A DNA stretch of 64,000 bases from Halorhabdus utahensis DSM 12940 (lineage in GTDB: Archaea > Halobacteriota > Halobacteria > Halobacteriales > Haloarculaceae). The notes below the pieces were generated by a model. It had not been told where the DNA came from, did no database searches, and saw nothing but the letters and a program-made list of their open reading frames with translations. Position numbers and translations under genes: made by a program. This document shows positions 4,107 through 46,547 of the stretch, piece by piece (within the stretch, counting starts at the first letter, position 1; each line of letters starts with the position of its first letter). The stretch lies in contig NC_013158.1 in assembly GCF_000023945.1 (NCBI RefSeq), positions 1,550,001-1,614,000 of the forward strand, written 5' to 3'.

Positions 4107-5978
4107 ATGACTGAAGCAGAATCAACCGAGGTGCTGATCGTCGGCGGCGGCATTGCCGGCTGTGCGGCCGCACTTGCCGCGGCCCGCGAGGTCGAGCAAG
4201 GCGAGAGCTCGAACCGGGCGAGCGGTGAAACCGTGAGCCGCGAGGTCGACCAGCGGGAGACCTCGGAACGAGCGAGCGGTGAAACCGTGAGCCGCGAGGT
4301 CGACCAGCGGGAGACCTCGGAACGAGCGAGCGGTGAAACCGTGAGCCGCGAGGTCGACCAGCGGGAGACCTCGGAACGAGCGAGCGGTGAAACCGTGAGC
4401 CGCGAGGTCGACCAGCGGGAGACCTCGGAACGAGCGAGCGGTGAAACCGTGAGCCGCGAGGTCGACCAGCGGGAGACCTCGGAACGAGCGAGCGGTGAAA
4501 CCGCGAGAAGTGATGCGGAAGTGATCCTCGCGACGAAAGCCCGCCGGCCCGAGGACGCCTCGACGTGGTGGGCCCAGGGCGGCATCGCCATTTCGCGTGA
4601 CGACCCTAAGCAGTTCAAACAGGACATCATCGACGCATCCGCCGGTACGGCCGATCCCGAGGCAGCGGACGTCCTGGTCGAGAACGCGAACGAAGCCGTC
4701 CGGGACGTTCTCGTCGAGACGCTGTCGGTCCCCTTCGATACCGCGGACGGAAGCGATGACGCGGTGGCCGAACGTGGCGGCGAGGACTTCGACTTCGGGA
4801 AGGAGGCCGCCCACGACGCGGACCGCATCCTCCACGTCGACGCCTCGACGGGTTCGTACGTCCTCGAACGCTTCCTCGCATTCGTCGACGACCACCCGGA
4901 CATTCGCGTGCTCGACGACACCGCCGCGCTGGATCTCATCACCCACGAGGGCGAGGTCCGCGGTGCGTACCTCGAATCAAGCGGCGAGGTCCGGCCGGTC
5001 TTCGCCGGCGCGACCGTGCTGGCGACCGGCGGCGTCGGCGACCTCTATCCCGACTCGACCAATCCCGCGGGTTCGACCGGCGACGGCATCGCCATGGCAG
5101 CGCTGGCCGGTGCGGACGTCGCCGACATGGAGTTCGTCCAGTTCCACCCGACGGCCCACGTCGACGAGAGCGGGACGCTGCTCATCAGCGAGGCCGTCCG
5201 CGGCGAGGGCGCGACCCTCCGGAACGCCTACGGCGAGCGGTTCATGCCCGCCTACGACGAGGACGCCGAACTCGCGCCGCGGGACGTGGTCGCGCGGGCG
5301 GTCAAAAACGAACGCGAAGTCAGCGGCGAAGTGTTCCTCGACGTTTCGGATATCGACTTCGAAGAGCGGTTCCCGGACCTCGTCGAGCAGTGCGAACGGC
5401 GCGGGATCGACTGGGAGACGGGGATCCCCGTCAGGCCCGCCCAGCACTTCCTCTGTGGCGGAGTCGCTGTCGACGAGTGGGGTCGGACCTCGCTCGATGG
5501 TCTCTACGCCGTCGGCGAGTGCGCCCACACGGGAGTCCACGGCGCCAACCGCCTGGCGAGCACCAGCCTGCTCGAGGGGTTGGTCTGGGGACTCCGGGCC
5601 GGCGCGGACGCCACCGGTCGCGACCCTGCGCCGATGGACGTCCCCGACCTGGACGACCGCGATCCGGCGCTACCCGACTCCTTCGCCCGCGAGAAGTTCA
5701 CCCGACTCCGGCGGGTGATGGGCGAGTACGTCGGCATCGAGCGCGATCCCGACGAATTGGAGCGAGCACTCGGGGTCCTCCGGCGACTCAAGGGCGAGGT
5801 CGACGCCTACGTCCGGACGCGGACCTCCCGGTCGCTGTACGAACTCCGGAACGCCAGCGTCGTCGCCCTCCTGATCGCTCGCGCCGCGGCCGCAAACGAC
5901 GAAAGCGTCGGCACGCACAATCTCGTCTCCGACGATGGGACGAGCACCGACGACGAGGCGACCGTCGAAACGCCATGA
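4107..5978 (+). CDS. nadB: L-aspartate oxidase NadB with an inserted repeat block
   Basis: Flavoprotein that oxidises L-aspartate to iminoaspartate for NadA. It is 623 residues, about 110 longer than usual. The FAD-binding strand-turn-helix VGGGIAGCAAALAAARE is followed at residues 27-134 by six 18-residue units (consensus REVDQRETSERASGETVS), after which the fold resumes at AEVILATKARRPED. The rest is orthodox: STWWAQGGIA, ATGGVGDLYPDSTNP, QFHPTAH, RDVVARA and GLYAVGECAHTGVHGANRLASTS. The insert sits exactly where the first helix turns into strand 2 of the Rossmann fold, so the enzyme probably tolerates it as a surface loop. Codon phase is kept (54-bp units), the frame is open throughout, and the gene overlaps nadC by ATGA. 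Confidence 0.93.
   Translation: MTEAESTEVLIVGGGIAGCAAALAAAREVEQGESSNRASGETVSREVDQRETSERASGETVSREVDQRETSERASGETVSREVDQRETSERASGETVSREVDQRETSERASGETVSREVDQRETSERASGETARSDAEVILATKARRPEDASTWWAQGGIAISRDDPKQFKQDIIDASAGTADPEAADVLVENANEAVRDVLVETLSVPFDTADGSDDAVAERGGEDFDFGKEAAHDADRILHVDASTGSYVLERFLAFVDDHPDIRVLDDTAALDLITHEGEVRGAYLESSGEVRPVFAGATVLATGGVGDLYPDSTNPAGSTGDGIAMAALAGADVADMEFVQFHPTAHVDESGTLLISEAVRGEGATLRNAYGERFMPAYDEDAELAPRDVVARAVKNEREVSGEVFLDVSDIDFEERFPDLVEQCERRGIDWETGIPVRPAQHFLCGGVAVDEWGRTSLDGLYAVGECAHTGVHGANRLASTSLLEGLVWGLRAGADATGRDPAPMDVPDLDDRDPALPDSFAREKFTRLRRVMGEYVGIERDPDELERALGVLRRLKGEVDAYVRTRTSRSLYELRNASVVALLIARAAAANDESVGTHNLVSDDGTSTDDEATVETP
4185..4508 (+). repeat. Six 54-bp tandem repeats inside nadB
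   Basis: Units start at 4185 (diverged), 4239, 4293, 4347, 4401 and 4455. Units 2-5 look identical; unit 6 differs only at its end. Each unit contains inverted repeats: CGGT-GAA-ACCG near the centre and ACCTCG/CGAGGT further out, so single strands can fold. All three frames are open on both strands across the block, which creates long spurious antisense frames. The near identity implies recent expansion, and copy number may vary between strains. Confidence 0.95.
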
Positions 5979-17088: not shown

Positions 17089-18210
17089 ATGATGACGCGA
17101 GATTCGACGCGTCCAGACGGGGCATCACGACGGAAATTCATCCTCTCGGCCGGCGCACTCGGGGCCACGGCACTGGCCGGGTGTAGCGGTGGCAACGACA
17201 CGACGGAGGACCAACCGGCCGGAAGCGGCGGAAACGGCGACGTTTCGACGCCGACGGAATCGAACTCACAGGACACCTCGACGCTGAAGGCCGACGGGTC
17301 CTCGACGGTGTACCCGATCGCGAACGACGCGAGCCGGCTGTGGAACGGCAATCCGCCGGCCGACGACCAGGAGTACTGGGGGCCCGGCCAGTACGACATC
17401 GACACGGACATGCACCTCGCCGATTACTGGGCCGAGAAGTACGGCTTCGAGCCGACCGAAACGCGGAGCGTTCCGCCGTTCGGTACGCAGATCGCGCTGA
17501 GTCACTCCGGGACCGGCGTCGAAGCGGTCATCAACGAACGCGTCGACATCGGGGACGCGAGTTCGACCGCCGAGTCGATCCTCGGTGCGGACAACGACGA
17601 ACTCGACAACATCGTCGACCACGTCGTCGGCGTCGACGGCCAGCCGATCGTCGTCAGCCGGGAGATCTACGATGCGGGCGTGACCCAGATCACCGGTGAT
17701 CAGCTCCGGGACATCTACATGAAGGAGATCACCAACTGGAGCGAACTCGGCGGCCCGGACAAGGAGATCTACGCGGTCGGCCGCGCGGAGGACTCCGGGA
17801 CCGACACCGCGTTCAGAGCGAACCTCTATGGCGACCCCGACGCGCCGATCGAGCCCGACACCCGGAAGGGCCAAAACCAGCAGGTCAAGACGCTCATCGA
17901 GCAAAACGACAACGCCATCGCCTACATCGCACTGGCGTTCGTCGAGCCCGACGGCGTGACACCGCCGATCGCCCTCGAACTCGAGGGGACCGTCTACGAG
18001 TACGGCAAGAACCTCGGCGCGAAGGAGTACCCGCTCAACCGCGACCTCCACATGTACACCTACGACGGGACGTCGATGAAGGAGGCCGCGTTCCTCAACA
18101 TGATCCTCTCGGAGTTCGGCCAGACAAACTTCGTCGAACCACAGAACTACTTCAAGCTCCCGGAGGCTCGCCGCGAGGAGGAACGCGCGAAACTCCCCGA
18201 CCAGGTCTAA
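17089..18210 (+). CDS. pstS: Phosphate-binding lipoprotein PstS
   Basis: Extracellular phosphate-binding component of the high-affinity Pst ABC transporter, 373 residues. Twin-arginine signal SRRKFILSAGALGATALAGC with lipobox LAGC: exported folded by Tat and lipid-anchored. Binding-site features: ADGSSTVYP (the TSF/GSST phosphate-ligand segment), GIGDASSTAES equivalent VDIGDASSTAE, and GRAEDSGTDTAF. TTG/ATG/ATG occur in series at 17086-17094; ATG 17089 is chosen. It is the first gene of pstSCAB-phoU, expected to be induced by phosphate limitation. Confidence 0.95.
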   Translation: MMTRDSTRPDGASRRKFILSAGALGATALAGCSGGNDTTEDQPAGSGGNGDVSTPTESNSQDTSTLKADGSSTVYPIANDASRLWNGNPPADDQEYWGPGQYDIDTDMHLADYWAEKYGFEPTETRSVPPFGTQIALSHSGTGVEAVINERVDIGDASSTAESILGADNDELDNIVDHVVGVDGQPIVVSREIYDAGVTQITGDQLRDIYMKEITNWSELGGPDKEIYAVGRAEDSGTDTAFRANLYGDPDAPIEPDTRKGQNQQVKTLIEQNDNAIAYIALAFVEPDGVTPPIALELEGTVYEYGKNLGAKEYPLNRDLHMYTYDGTSMKEAAFLNMILSEFGQTNFVEPQNYFKLPEARREEERAKLPDQV

Positions 18211-18274
18211 GACGACCGTTCTCCGGGATCATGCAGGATTCGAAGTCTGAACGACGCACGTCGAGGACACACCC

Positions 18275-19393
18275 ATGACAGCCGAATTTCAGTCACCGGC
18301 GAGGGGTTCCGCCGTCGTCCGATGGGGGCGCGAGCGTGGCCGCTCGCTTCGCCGGTCGGTCGAGCGGCTGGGCTGGGTCGGTCGCCTGCTGGCCGTCGGC
18401 CAGCTGTCGCTGGTCGTCGCCGCCTTCGTCGGGTTTCTCGTCCAGTCGGTCTGGACGCCGCTTTTCGTGGTCTCGTTTCTGGTTGTGTTCGGACTGGGAT
18501 GGGGCCTCCGAGAGGCGCTGACTGCCAAGATCATGACGTTCCTGATGACGGTCTCCGCGCTGGTCACGCTGGGATTGATCGCCGTCTTCCTCGTCCTCGA
18601 GGCGATCCCCGCGTTCCAGACGGCCGGCTTGGACCTCATCAACCCCTTCGGCGAGAACGCGTGGGCCGCGAGCCAGGGCCAGTATTCGCTCGTCCCGATG
18701 ATCTGGGGGACCGTGCTCACGACGATCGTCGCGGTCGCGGTCGCCGGACCGCTCGGGATTGCGGGCGCGCTGTTCATCAGCGAGATCGCCCCCGGCTGGG
18801 TCCGCGATATCGTCAAACCCGCCGTCGAGATCCTCGCGGGGATCCCGTCGATCGTCTACGGGTTCATCGGGTTCACGATCATCAACCCCTACGTCACGGG
18901 TCGCCTCTCGGTCAATCCCGGCGCGCTGTTCGCGATCGGCGTCGTCATCGGGTTCATGGCGCTGCCGACGGTCATCTCGGTTGCGGAGGACGCCCTGGCG
19001 GCCGTGCCGTCGCCGATGAAAGACGGGTCGCTCGCCGTCGGTGCGACCGACTGGCAGACGATGCAGAGCGTGACCGTCCCGGCGGCGTTCTCCGGGATAT
19101 CCGCGGCCGTCCTGCTCGGGATCGGCCGCGCGATGGGCGAGACGATGGCCGCGACGGTGATGATCTCACACAGCCGTCGGCTCCCCGAACCGACAGGGTA
19201 CAACGTCTTCGACAGCACGGAGACGCTGACGACGTTCATCGCCAGCAGCTACGGCCACGTCACGCCCGGCGAGACGTTCTGGAGCGCGCTGTTCGCCGCC
19301 GGCGTCGTCCTCCTGGTCATCGTCACCGGACTCGGGATCGCCTCGCAACTGGTCGAGATGCGAATGGAACGGAAACTGCAGGGCAACCAATGA
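18275..19393 (+). CDS. pstC: Phosphate ABC transporter permease PstC
   Basis: Membrane subunit of the Pst importer, 372 residues with about 7 hydrophobic segments. The PstC/CysT-type permease core is clear: GTVLTTIVAVAVAGPLGI, FISEIAPGWVRDIVKP, GIPSIVYGFIG, and the ATPase-contacting EAA loop SVGATDWQTMQSVTVPAAFSGI followed by GRAMGETMAA. The stop overlaps the pstA ATG (ATGA). Confidence 0.95.
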   Translation: MTAEFQSPARGSAVVRWGRERGRSLRRSVERLGWVGRLLAVGQLSLVVAAFVGFLVQSVWTPLFVVSFLVVFGLGWGLREALTAKIMTFLMTVSALVTLGLIAVFLVLEAIPAFQTAGLDLINPFGENAWAASQGQYSLVPMIWGTVLTTIVAVAVAGPLGIAGALFISEIAPGWVRDIVKPAVEILAGIPSIVYGFIGFTIINPYVTGRLSVNPGALFAIGVVIGFMALPTVISVAEDALAAVPSPMKDGSLAVGATDWQTMQSVTVPAAFSGISAAVLLGIGRAMGETMAATVMISHSRRLPEPTGYNVFDSTETLTTFIASSYGHVTPGETFWSALFAAGVVLLVIVTGLGIASQLVEMRMERKLQGNQ

Positions 19394-21564
19394 GTGACGC
19401 ATATTCGAGACGACTCGTCGATACAGGCTCGACGGGATACGACCGTATCGCCGCCGGAACCGTCGGGATCGCTTTTCTCCTCTTTGCCGCCGCCGTCGGC
19501 ACGTTCTTCGGCTGGGTGCCGACCGGCGAGACGGGAGGCCCCGTTCCGGGACTGACGTACTTCGGCGTCGCCCTGCTCGGCCTCGGCAGCCTCGTCGTCG
19601 GGTTGGGAGTCGCCTCCCGACGTTTCGACGTCGCGACGACGCCGAGCGAGTCGCCCGGATTGATCGCCAGCACCGTCCTCGGCGTGCTCTGGCTGGCGAC
19701 GGTGGGCTCGGTGGCCACCTGGGCGCTCGGGCCGCTCGGCTGGCCGCTCGGGGTGGTGGTCGGCGGCGCGGTCGGATACGCCACCCTCGCCGCGCCCGAG
19801 GACATCGGCTCGACGCTGCCCGTCGGTGCGTTCCTCCTGCTTTCGGGCGCGCTCGTCACCGCGGGCGTGCTCGGCCCGGGGTGGGCCTGGGAGTCGTCGG
19901 CGTTCGGGGCGACCTTCCCCGCCGACGTCGTCGTGCCGCTGGTGGCGCTGTCGAGTAGCCTCCTCGCGGGCTGGACCGCCGGGAAAGCCTACGGCGGTTT
20001 CGGCGCACGCGGGCGACAACACGGCGCGTTCCTGCTCGTCTCGCTGGTCGTCTTCCTCGTTGTTGGCGTGCTTGCGTTCCTGCTTGTCTACGTCGCCGAG
20101 CGCGGGATCGGGACGACGGTCGAGAACCTCACCGTCAGCGCCGGGACGCTGCTGGTCGCGCTCGCGCTCCCACTTTTCGTCGCAGTCCGGCGCGGACGCC
20201 GCGGTCTCGGCTCCGCGTCCGGGGTCACCCTCATCGCGGTGTACCTGTGGCTCGCGCTCGCAGGGACGCTCGCACTGGTCGGTTCGGGGCTCGGGTACGC
20301 GATCGTGAGCGGCAACGGGCTCACGACGGCCACCACGACGATCCAGCCGACGGCGGCCGTCGGCGCGCTGCCGGCCGCCTTCGTCAGCGGCCTCGCGGTG
20401 CTGGCCGCCAGGCAAGCAACGCCGTGGCGGCCATCCGATCGGCGGGCACGAAGACTCAAGCGCGCCGGGGTTGGCCTCGCAATCGCGCTCGCAGCGGGCG
20501 TCATCATCGAACTCCTCGTCGGCCCGCTAGTGGTCGGCGTCTCGCTGGTCGGCACGTTTGCCGTGGTCGTCTGCGCACTGAGTAGCGCGTCCATCGCCGC
20601 GGGTCTGCCAGGACGGTTCCGGGACGGCCCCGCTCGCACCCCGGTCCCGCCGCTCACCGCGAGCGCCCAGCTGTTGCTCCTGGGAGTGCTGGCTGCGTCG
20701 CTGCACGTGCTCCTCACCGGCAACTCGATCGGAACAGAGACCGTGGGACTGGTCGCGAGCGGGACCGTCGACTGGCCGTTCGTGATGAACCCGACCCAGG
20801 GGCTCGGGATCCAGCGCGGGGTCATGCCGGCGCTGATCGGGACCGTCTGGATCGTCGTCGGTGCGGTCGCCTTCGCCGTGCCGATCGCCGTCGGCGCGGC
20901 CGTCTTCCTCACGGAATACGCCGAGGACAGTCTCTTCACCAAGGGCGTCGACGTGGCCACGAACGGCCTCTGGAGCACCCCGAGCATCGTCTTCGGGCTG
21001 TTCGGCCTGGCGTTCATCGTCCCGCGATTCGGCAACAGCGGGTCGATCTTCGCCTCCCAGCTCGTTCTCGGGTTCATGTTGCTCCCGCTCGTGCTGGTCA
21101 CGAGCCGGGAGGCGATGCAGAGCGTCCCCGACGAGTACCGGGACGCCAGCGCCGCGCTGGGCGTCAGCAAGTGGGACACGATCAAGGAGGTCGTCATCCC
21201 CGCCTCGATGCCGGGGATCATCACCGGCGTCATCCTCGGGGTCGGGCGTATCGCCGGCGAGACCGCCCCGCTGTTGCTCGTGTTGAACGGCCCGGTCGCC
21301 CCGACGGACGCCCCGGCTGTCCTGTCGAGTTTCGAGGTCGGCCTGACGGCCCAGCCGCCGTTCGTGTCGGTGACCAATCCGGCGCTGCTCGAATCGGCGA
21401 GCGCGCTCCCCTACCAGCTGTACGCGATCATCACCGCGGGCGTGTTGGACGACATGGCGTTCGGCTGGGCGACGGCGTTCGTGTTGCTCGGCGTCGTCCT
21501 GTCGTTTTTCGCCGTGGCCGTCGCCTCGCGGCGGTACTTCCGGAGGAAACTACACCATGACTGA
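19390..21564 (+). CDS. pstA: Phosphate ABC transporter permease PstA with a long N-terminal membrane extension
   Basis: 724 residues, far above the roughly 290 of bacterial PstA. The C-terminal ~300 residues are the permease proper: [46 protein letters not shown], the EAA loop [22 protein letters not shown] and [10 protein letters not shown]. The first ~400 residues hold about ten extra hydrophobic segments without recognisable motif. A longer frame from 18322 is only a shadow of pstC; the ATG at 19390 overlaps the pstC stop. I recall extended PstA proteins in haloarchaea, but the role of the extension is unknown. Confidence 0.93.
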
Positions 21565-22462
21565 GACGACGATGGCGTCAGAAGGCAGCACAGGCACGGA
21601 AATCGAGACGACGTCCGGCGAGAGCACGGAGCGGACGCGCGAGGCGTGGACCGACTACGAGTTCGGGAGCGAGGCGGTCCTGTCAGTCGAGGACCTGAAC
21701 GTCTACTACGGCGACGAGCGGGCGATCAAGGACGTCTCGATGGACATCCCCGAAAAGAGCGTCACGGCGCTGATCGGCCCCTCAGGGTGTGGGAAGTCGA
21801 CGTTCCTCCGCTCGCTCAACCGGATGAACGACCGGATAAAGAGCGCCCGGGTCGAAGGGACCGTCGAGTTCGACGGCAGTGACATCTATCAGGAGGGCGT
21901 CGATCTGGTTGAGCTCCGCAAGCGGATCGGGATGGTGTTTCAGTCCCCGAACCCGTTCCCCAAGTCGATCCGGGAGAACGTCGCGTACGGCCCCCGAAAG
22001 CACGGGGACATCAACCGCGGACTTGCGGCCCGGCTGCTCGGGCGCGACGAGAAGGACGCCGAAGACGAACTCGTCGAGCGGACACTGCGGCAGGCAGCCC
22101 TGTGGGACGAGGTGAAAGACCGGCTGGCGGACAACGCCCTCGGGCTGTCCGGTGGCCAACAACAGCGCCTCTGTATCGCACGGTGTCTCGCGGTCGATCC
22201 GGAGGTCATCCTGATGGACGAGCCCGCGAGCGCCCTGGACCCCATCGCCACCGCCAAGATCGAGGACCTCATCGAGGAGTTGGCCGAGGACTACACGGTC
22301 GTCGTGGTCACCCACAACATGCAGCAGGCGGCGCGCATCTCCGACCAGACGGCCGTCTTCCTCACCGGTGGCGAACTCGTCGAATACGACGACACCGAGA
22401 AGATCTTCGAGAACCCCGAGAGTCAGCGCGTCGAAGACTACGTCACCGGCAAGTTCGGGTGA
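21557..22462 (+). CDS. pstB: Phosphate ABC transporter ATPase PstB
   Basis: ATP-hydrolysing subunit, 301 residues. Walker [10 protein letters not shown]-loop [15 protein letters not shown], signature LSGGQQQR, Walker [14 protein letters not shown] and the H-loop [13 protein letters not shown] are all intact. An acidic N-terminal tail of about 35 residues precedes the domain. An insertion around [21 protein letters not shown] lies in the helical domain. The start overlaps pstA by 8 nt. Confidence 0.96.
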
Positions 22463-22466
22463 TCCG

Positions 22467-23141
22467 ATGGCACGAGAGGAGTTCCGTCACGCACTGGCCG
22501 ACCTCCGGACGGCCGTCGTCGAGATGGGCGAACTCGTCCTCGAACGCCTGAAAGCCGCCCGCTCGGCACTAGCCGAGGGTGACGACGACCGTGCCGAGGC
22601 GGTCATCGAGGGGGACGAAGAGATCAACCGCCGGTACCTCGACATCGAGGCCGACTGTATCGACCTCTTCGCGCTGGAACAGCCGGTCGCTGGCGACCTC
22701 CGGCTGGTCGCGGCCAGCTTCAAGATCTCGACCGACCTCGAACGCGTCGGCGATCTGGCGACCAACCTCGCCCGGTACGCGCTGTCGAGTCGCCCGGACC
22801 CGTTCCCGGAACTCGACATCTCCGGGATCGGTCGGGCGGCGGCCGCCATGCTCGAAGACGCGCTGGCGGCCTACGAGACCGAGGACGCGGCGGCCTGCCG
22901 AACGGTCGCCGGGCGAGACGACGACCTGGATGCGATGTGTCAACGTGCGAGCGAACGGGTAGCCCGGGACTTGCTGGAACGCGATCCGGAGCTCGACGCC
23001 TGGGCACTCGAAGCAGTCCTCGACGACGTCGCGAGCGTGCTGTTGACGATCCGCGACATCGAACGGGTCGGCGATCACGCCGTCAATATCGCCGCCAGGA
23101 CGCTGTACGCCCTCGAGGGCGATCCGGAGTTGATCTACTGA
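22467..23141 (+). CDS. phoU: Phosphate uptake regulator PhoU
   Basis: 224 residues forming two three-helix PhoU repeats: ERLKAARSALAEGDDDRAEAVIEGDEEINRRYLDIE in the first and DLDAMCQRASERVARDLLE with IRDIERVGDHAVNIAA in the second. PhoU proteins restrain Pst transport and phosphate signalling at the membrane. ATG at 22467 follows pstB by 4 nt. The last nine codons (LEGDPELIY) and the stop are the template of the repeat that follows. Confidence 0.94.
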   Translation: MAREEFRHALADLRTAVVEMGELVLERLKAARSALAEGDDDRAEAVIEGDEEINRRYLDIEADCIDLFALEQPVAGDLRLVAASFKISTDLERVGDLATNLARYALSSRPDPFPELDISGIGRAAAAMLEDALAAYETEDAAACRTVAGRDDDLDAMCQRASERVARDLLERDPELDAWALEAVLDDVASVLLTIRDIERVGDHAVNIAARTLYALEGDPELIY

Positions 23142-23230
23142 TGAAACGCGATCCGGAGGTGAACTACTGATGAAACTCGCTCTGGAGTTGATCTACTGAT
23201 GAACTCCGCTCTGGAGGTGAGCGACTGATG
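23112..23230 (+). repeat. 29-bp repeat of an RBS/TGATG junction with three minicistrons
   Basis: The phoU 3-prime end (from 23112) is repeated in units whose ATGs lie at 23141, 23170, 23199 and 23228, an exact 29-bp period. Each unit has GGAGGTGA or GGAGTTGA ending exactly 7 nt before the next ATG and a TGATG stop/start overlap. The result is three complete nine-codon frames: MKRDPEVNY (23141-23170), MKLALELIY (23170-23199) and MNSALEVSD (23199-23228), chained between phoU and the next regulator. The two Shine-Dalgarno variants alternate, which suggests a 58-bp higher-order duplication. Confidence 0.9.
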
Positions 23231-24211
23231 GAGACCCGCAAGATCCAGAAGGTCGGCGGCTCGACGTTCACGGTCTCGGTCCCCAAGGAGTGGGCCAGAC
23301 GCCAGGGCCTGGAGACGGGCGAGGTCGTTCGGCTGTACACCCACCGCGACGGGTCGCTGATCGTTCGTGGCAGACAGACCGACGGCGAGAGTCTGACGTC
23401 GGTCTCACTGTCCGTCACAGAGTCAAGTGCCGACGCCGTCGAGCGGTCGATACAGGGGGCCTACGAGGCCGGGTTCGAGCGGATCTCGCTGCATGCCGAT
23501 GACGGTTTCACCGACGAGCAACGCAGAGTCGCCCGCACGGTCGGCCGACGCCTCGTCGGGACGGAAGTCCTCGACGCCGATGCGGACCGGATCGACGTCC
23601 GGGCGATGCTCGACGCCTCGGCGGTCTCGATCCGCCAGTCGATCGACCAGGCCGTCTCGGTCGTCTCGACGATGCAGGAAACGGTGCGTGAGAAGCTGAC
23701 CGGCGACGTTGAGCCCACCGGGCAGGTCAGTGATCGCCTGACGGACGTCACGCGGCTGGTCGCGCTGATCCGTCGTCACTACAACCGGTCGTTGGTGACG
23801 TTCGGGGAACTCGATGCGCTCGGCATCGATCGTGTGCCGCTGTCCCAGTACGACCGGACGGCGAACCGAATCGAGGAGATCGCCACGGCAACCGTCCGAC
23901 TGGATAGTGCCATCGGCGGCGTCGCACTCGAGGCGGCGGACAGGCAGGCGATCGCAACCCGACTGACTGGCCTCCGCTCAGCCCTCGAAGAGGCGACGAA
24001 ACTCGTCGTCGAAGGCGGAAACGCCCCGGCGATGAGCGTCGAACCGTCGCCGTTGGAAGCACAGAGACAATCGGCTGGTGAACCTCAGGACGACAGCGTC
24101 GATCCGGTCCGAGCCCGGATATTCGATCACCTGACGCGGATCGACGACGCCGTCCGAGCGATCGAACGCGTCGGGCTCCAGTCAGCCGTCCGGTCCGGCC
24201 AGTCCTGGTAG
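23228..24211 (+). CDS. AbrB-PhoU fusion regulator of phosphate uptake
   Basis: 327 residues. The N-terminal ~48 residues (TRKIQKVGGSTFTVSVPKEW) are a SpoVT/AbrB swapped-hairpin DNA-binding domain. The remainder is helical and PhoU-like (AVERSIQGAYEAGFERI, ASAVSIRQSIDQAVSVVSTMQ, HLTRIDDAVRAIERVG). This arrangement suggests a transcription regulator that links Pst/PhoU status to promoter binding. A perfect GGAGGTGA at 23213-23220, within the last minicistron, serves its ATG. Confidence 0.88.
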   Translation: METRKIQKVGGSTFTVSVPKEWARRQGLETGEVVRLYTHRDGSLIVRGRQTDGESLTSVSLSVTESSADAVERSIQGAYEAGFERISLHADDGFTDEQRRVARTVGRRLVGTEVLDADADRIDVRAMLDASAVSIRQSIDQAVSVVSTMQETVREKLTGDVEPTGQVSDRLTDVTRLVALIRRHYNRSLVTFGELDALGIDRVPLSQYDRTANRIEEIATATVRLDSAIGGVALEAADRQAIATRLTGLRSALEEATKLVVEGGNAPAMSVEPSPLEAQRQSAGEPQDDSVDPVRARIFDHLTRIDDAVRAIERVGLQSAVRSGQSW

Positions 24212-24309
24212 CGGTCCCAGGTTCCCGTCAGGAACGCTACTGAGGGCTATGTAGAGCTCTTATATACGCCTTTTACCGTCGGTCACGAAAATCAGAATAG
24301 ACCGAATAC

Positions 24310-46343: not shown

Positions 46344-46406
46344 ATGCACGACCTCTCGTTGGTCATGCACGACCTCTCGTTGGTCATGCACGACCTCTCG
46401 TTGGTC
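46344..46406 (+). repeat. Three 21-bp tandem repeats abutting the right ORB
   Basis: Units beginning ATGCACGACCTCTCG start at 46344, 46365 and 46386 and are identical; the array begins at the end of the ORB G-string. The unit length is two helical turns, so the copies face one side of the DNA. Confidence 0.92.
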
Positions 46407-46547
46407 ATCGGATTGTCGATGAGCCCGTCCTTGTCGTGGTTTCCGTGTTCGTTCAGAATTCGTTATATATGTCTGACGTACAGTTAAGTGAATTCGGAAA
46501 AGTGTTTTGCGCAGATGCCCCGACTCGCTCGGGCGCGGGAGGATAGG

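Follow-up and report, generated by a model that had tools for sequence, protein, structure and literature searches.

The stretch of DNA analysed here (64,000 nucleotides of Halorhabdus utahensis DSM 12940, contig NC_013158.1, positions 1,550,001 to 1,614,000; hereafter the window) has a 29-bp tandem repeat lying between phoU and the regulator gene downstream of it, which raises the question of how such a repeat arose at an operon junction and what it does there. A first-pass annotation had read it as three nine-codon minicistrons copied from a ribosome-binding junction, forming a re-initiation cascade that could tune the ratio of PhoU to the regulator. The answer favored here is that the array is probably a chain of minicistrons that passes ribosomes on from phoU to the regulator gene, derived by tandem duplication of the phoU/regulator junction; we infer that its units are translated, that the duplication took place in situ, and that there is selection for coupling.

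The array has 84% matches and no indels according to TRF (Table 1), and a repeat search places its register copies at spacings of 29 and 29, with 83–87% identity to the reference. The phoU gene ends in GAG TTG ATC TAC TGA, and the reading order from there is MKRDPEVNY (ATG AAA CGC GAT CCG GAG GTG AAC TAC TGA), MKLALELIY (ATG AAA CTC GCT CTG GAG TTG ATC TAC TGA), MNSALEVSD (ATG AAC TCC GCT CTG GAG GTG AGC GAC TGA), and the AbrB/PhoU-like gene. Each minicistron has nine codons and a TGA sharing its A with the following ATG; because 29 is 2 mod 3, every 29-bp copy spans nine codons between successive TGATG overlaps. The overlap is TGATG at all four links of the chain, and ahead of all four ATGs, at a distance of 7 nt, stands a Shine-Dalgarno (SD) sequence of the form GGAGKTGA. 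This genome contains the anti-SD motif GGATCACCTCCT, and the predicted SD/anti-SD duplexes of the array range from -14.0 to -16.2 kcal/mol. Reading of the sequence and the chain parser agree that the unit length, SD spacing, overlaps, coordinates, and frame arithmetic given in the first-pass annotation were correct, and that there are indeed three nine-codon minicistrons between the two genes.

Table 1. Features of the phoU/regulator junction and the genes around it (positions in the window).
Feature	Position	Strand	Evidence and remarks
pst operon genes: two permeases, one ABC ATPase	18275..22462	+	Upstream of phoU; Pfam PF00528, PF00528, PF00005
phoU, 224 codons	22467..23141	+	Upstream ribosome donor; translation, Pfam PF01895, TIGR02135; 3' end holds first SD and TGATG
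29-bp tandem repeat array	23119..23230	+	3.9 copies, phoU 3' end included
SD GGAGTTGA within phoU	23126..23133	+	7 nt ahead of ATG 23141; duplex -14.2 kcal/mol
Minicistron 1, MKRDPEVNY, stop	23141..23170	+	Sequence reading, chain parser
SD GGAGGTGA	23155..23162	+	7 nt ahead of ATG 23170; duplex -16.2 kcal/mol
Minicistron 2, MKLALELIY, stop	23170..23199	+	Sequence reading, chain parser
SD GGAGTTGA	23184..23191	+	7 nt ahead of ATG 23199; duplex -14.0 kcal/mol
Minicistron 3, MNSALEVSD, stop	23199..23228	+	Unit common to window, G006, and G004
SD GGAGGTGA	23213..23220	+	7 nt ahead of ATG 23228; duplex -15.3 kcal/mol
Downstream regulator gene, 327 codons	23228..24211	+	AbrB/MazE-type N-terminus (PF04014); PhoU-like C-terminus

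A parser following stop/start overlaps only found exactly one chain in the array, of three minicistrons, joined by TGATG overlaps to the genes on both sides. The chance of a complete chain in random or shuffled gaps of the array's size was 5% at the same length and 12% at free length, with the repeat itself left uncounted. For the genome background, pattern searches and sampled regions were used: TGATG-N-SD-TGATG has three matches in the 3.1-Mb genome, all at the phoU junction, and none in a reversed control.

The locus is a pst-phoU operon, its two permeases being of the binding-protein-dependent kind, followed by the regulator gene, and the gene names first proposed hold by Pfam, TIGR02135, and profile comparison. 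The PhoU-like part of the regulator was not shown by Pfam or NCBIfam alone; it emerged from a profile comparison of its C-terminal part with PhoU (hhalign probability 97.8%). Compared with the Halorhabdus genome G006, the pst-phoU segment (about 17300–23170) has roughly 94–98% identity and the sequence beyond 24225 about 92%, versus only 76% for the regulator gene (window 23230–24225, compared with L313, L314, and L315); fourfold-site divergence from G006 is 0.40 in the regulator gene and 0.06 in phoU. In one lineage the regulator gene looks to have been exchanged by recombination, and one of the borders would lie at or close to the minicistron array. Two other repeats were seen in the window. 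Six 54-bp in-frame repeats of 18 residues each (EVDQRETSERASGETVSR) occupy 4184–4507, in an L-aspartate oxidase (nadB)-like ORF (4107–5978) just past its N-terminal nucleotide-binding motif, and 3.1 perfect copies of a 21-bp repeat (ATGCACGACCTCTCGTTGGTC) are found at 46344–46408, with no convincing gene across them.

The same junction was compared across the genus, where the orthologous gene pair is present in five of six further genomes. Three of these (G005, G001, and G003) have a direct TGATG overlap and no units, while in G006 and G004 a single 29-bp unit is present (MKPALEVSD and MDPAQEVSG respectively, each closed by a stop codon), matching unit 3 of the window. Copy number in the genus, with one genome per species, is thus 0, 1, or 3, and the junction is always intact; decayed frames in the relatives, which would have spoken against the proposal, were sought and none was found. 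In other genera of the family, several have a direct TGATG and others a short gap. Within the array, unit 1 is like the phoU end at 16 of 18 nt, and unit 2 resembles unit 3 in its first half and phoU in its second. The oldest of the three is probably unit 3, to which units 1 and 2 were added later. The SD of the shared unit is slightly stronger (-15.3 to -16.0 kcal/mol) than the one encoded in phoU (-14.2 kcal/mol). Because the fourfold-site divergence of phoU is just 6% from G006 and 17% from G004, conservation of the unit was rejected as proof of selection within the genus, and the window locus alone cannot prove selection on it.

A second copy-number series comes from an ABC permease/ATPase junction in the genus g25, surveyed by protein orthology regardless of frame. 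Thirty loci were read, 18 with a direct overlap and no units and 12 carrying 23, 44, 46, 47, or 107 bp at the junction; unit numbers are 0, 1, 2, or about 5. All 12 of the non-zero states have a complete chain, by way of TGATG, ATGA, or an 8-nt overlap, and the g25 tree calls for a minimum of nine changes in length; sister genomes differ, for example, as 46/23 and 107/0. The comparison used for this series was with random gaps whose length was left free, which were readable in 25–33% of trials, and the length changes therefore appear to have been filtered for continuity of the predicted chain. In one g25 locus (L291, genome G461), about five in-frame 21-bp copies encoding MRRDAGP repeats make up a single 35-codon minicistron; the sister genome G359 has none.

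A pattern scan for junctions of this kind covered 148 family genomes and 394 order genomes, the second set including the first; a junction was kept only if the frames on either side of it showed the codon structure typical of haloarchaea. Treating every TGATG-SD-TGATG match as a relay was rejected, many being Met codons in frame close to the end of an ordinary gene (the MLAKRDDGGEN type, for example) or lying in non-coding frames. Among the 22 junctions with codon-like flanks, which form about 17 groups of loci, the unit is stop-free and 2 mod 3 in length in 21; the remaining one (L252) consists of two consecutive 23-bp units, and all 22 conform to the frame rule. With a one-in-three chance per group the probability of this frame rule is near 1e-8, the approximately 17 groups perhaps not being fully independent. 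The gene pairs, named from translations mostly without family-search confirmation, putatively include topoVI B/A, narG/narH, mnhF/mnhG, uS17/uL14, eS4/uL5, uL22/uS3, branched-chain ABC genes, pstC/pstA, MgtE halves, and cheY/cheA. Besides the window, two loci have chains of three units: L268, with 44-bp units leading from a cheY-like to a cheA-like gene, and L144, with identical 26-bp units, where copy number is less certain because the locus is near the end of a MAG contig. A phylum-wide scan gave a few candidate matches beyond the haloarchaea.

Unit sequences are unrelated between junctions and range from 23 to 50 bp; what they have in common is the SD with TGATG, and the frame. In the sequence leading up to the second TGATG, likeness to the upstream gene end at the same locus is greater than to the gene ends of other loci (0 of 20,000 permutations), as expected if the units are copies of their junctions. 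In L276, and for the first unit of L268, there is no likeness between the unit and the upstream gene end, so that some loci need not be junction duplications. L258 (genome G339) has two similar 47-bp minicistrons, MCSDPQETVSSGGDD and MNSDPRKTKSSGGEK, each closed by a stop codon, at different junctions 1.5 kb apart in one ribosomal-protein operon; this suggests possible copying between junctions, more MIRU-like (see below) than the window case. For one gap of 29 nt, same-length shuffles that keep the TGATG ends give a readable frame by chance in a fraction of 0.75–0.91. Such shuffles, being weak for single short units, were abandoned as the main test, and the case rests instead on the many loci, with their mod-3 rule, and on the length changes. 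In this way the earlier proposal that the units were copied from a ribosome-binding junction and the chain kept readable is supported by comparison, both among relatives and across many independent junctions under the frame rule.

The peptides do not share this constancy. They vary among units and among species, and the EV or GG common near their ends is set by the SD codons. At the pstC/pstA junction of another pst operon (L332, L333, and L334), a minicistron of 12–13 codons occurs in three Halorhabdus species, encoding MDCRNTSREVSA, MDYRDTIVEVTA, and MIGHRKAPVEVIV, each followed by a stop; these have diverged while the chain is conserved, although that of MIGHRKAPVEVIV is entered by an ATGA overlap, not TGATG. 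No match to the pstA of these three loci was found in the window's own genome. What is conserved is the continuity of the predicted chain, and not the putative peptides. It is accordingly very improbable that the nine-codon peptides themselves are functional, although they would be produced if the chain is translated.

Termination-reinitiation is the mechanism to be expected at such overlaps (PMC6728339, PMC10666635). In Haloferax volcanii, overlapping downstream genes were strictly coupled in nine of nine pairs tested; internal SDs gave no de novo start, and the contribution of the SD differed by pair (PMC6728339). Reinitiation was about 40–60% at gaps of 13–14 nt and about zero at 22–23 nt, and in E. 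coli the terminal 15 nt of the gene upstream were enough for it (PMC10666635). A termination-reinitiation junction would need just a short 3' stretch with an SD and an overlapping stop/start, which would make a 29-bp copy a complete, portable hand-over module. A ribosome leaving phoU could terminate and restart at 23141, 23170, and 23199, and then at the regulator ATG at 23228. Selection for an unbroken chain is proposed because an unread gap of 29–87 nt is expected to abolish coupling in haloarchaea: unless they contain open minicistrons, 29, 58, or 87 added bases would be expected to leave the regulator uncoupled, and junction duplications in situ would be kept only where ribosome hand-over survives. 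The peptides would then be by-products, with selection retaining the unbroken chain.

Short tandem repeats do arise by slippage, and the array could be a neutral, untranslated product of it, the regulator being started independently, for example from a transcript of its own. The 18 g25 genomes and three Halorhabdus species that do without units would agree with this, but it is an unlikely explanation: the frame rule holds across approximately 17 locus groups, 12 of 12 g25 chains are unbroken after at least nine length changes, and throughout the family the alternative state is the direct TGATG overlap. Still less probable is that the repeats are DNA or RNA elements, such as operator sites of this AbrB-type regulator or mRNA structures, with incidental frames. 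The adjoining gene does encode an AbrB-domain protein, and the array folds slightly better than shuffles; with z = -2.1 the improvement is modest, and no mRNA structural element is claimed. Against such elements, the same architecture is found between unrelated genes (ribosomal proteins, topoVI, narGH, mnhFG), in units whose sequences and lengths are unrelated and which share the SD with TGATG, and the frame.

A further possibility is compatible with the relay mechanism. Copy number might act as an adaptive rheostat, the number of units setting the PhoU:regulator ratio, with each added termination-reinitiation step lowering, or a stronger SD raising, the share of ribosomes reaching the regulator. 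Copy number does vary between species, and SD strength among units; the unit common to three species bears the stronger GGAGGTGA, and in several Haloferax pairs removal of the SD altered reinitiation by 20–80% (PMC6728339). However, the Haloferax effect showed no dependence on the length of the SD and in one pair ran the other way (PMC6728339), and the frequent changes in copy number between g25 sister species are as expected of a loosely constrained repeat. This idea is best regarded as speculative, and the data would fit a chain merely preserving coupling after duplication equally well as one tuning a ratio. Of the first-pass interpretation, then, the junction copying and readable chain have the support of comparison, while termination-reinitiation stands as the expected mechanism.

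The closest precedent for such relay arrays is the mycobacterial MIRU, described as a repeat that inserts at start codons and carries an inner ORF in coupling with the neighboring gene (PMC12548453). Both are short repeats at operon junctions whose inner ORFs are coupled by stop/start overlap, and both occur in tandem: the senX3-regX3 MIRUs comprise three 77-bp units in strain H37Rv, and two of 77 and one of 53 bp in CDC1551 (PMC4213456), lengths which, like 29, are 2 mod 3. The senX3-regX3 operon is also, like the window locus, a phosphate-responsive regulatory one. However, MIRUs are apparently mobile and dispersed through the genome with one shared sequence, and their links have -4 spacing (ATGA), whereas the present units are shorter, junction-specific, mostly similar to the adjacent gene end, more often linked by TGATG, and found in archaeal hosts. 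Assignment of the units to the MIRUs was rejected for want of a dispersed homologous family: in this haloarchaeal genome the unit pattern is confined to a single locus, and the unit comes from local phoU-end-like sequence, not from a mycobacterial sequence family.

The overlapping gene pairs of Haloferax volcanii have the same TGATG or ATGA overlap, and their SD likewise lies in the 3' end of the upstream gene, so that strict coupling is to be expected here too (PMC6728339, PMC10666635); they differ in that the window junction is repeated, with minicistrons that are not genes between the two genes. The window genes, 86 nt apart, are predicted to be able to stay coupled, whereas in Haloferax coupling is lost across direct gaps of about 20 nt. 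Synthetic bicistronic-design or nfORF boosters likewise use a short ORF with an internal RBS by its stop to bring ribosomes to the next gene (PMC13255528), but they are single units placed before one E. coli target, as against a natural tandem chain between genes. No report of relay chains in archaea was found in the open literature searched, the subscription literature being mostly outside the search.

It is conceivable, though at present a tentative generalization, that haloarchaeal operons hold a general, unnamed class of variable-number relay arrays, formed by junction duplication, filtered by frame and bridging apparent gaps, in which copy number and SD strength would govern the output ratio of the two partner genes as evolvable translational rheostats. 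The arrays suggest that the site of ribosome hand-over is self-contained and can be duplicated as a module in situ. An SD used in coupling has to be encoded within the C-terminus of the upstream protein (Huber et al., 2019), and a duplicated copy would offer a way round this constraint, being free to adopt a perfect SD. The natural copy-number series (0/1/3 units in Halorhabdus and 0/1/2/about 5 in g25) would make the efficiency of each termination-reinitiation step measurable, and operon gaps seemingly too long for coupling may prove to be bridged by unannotated minicistrons.
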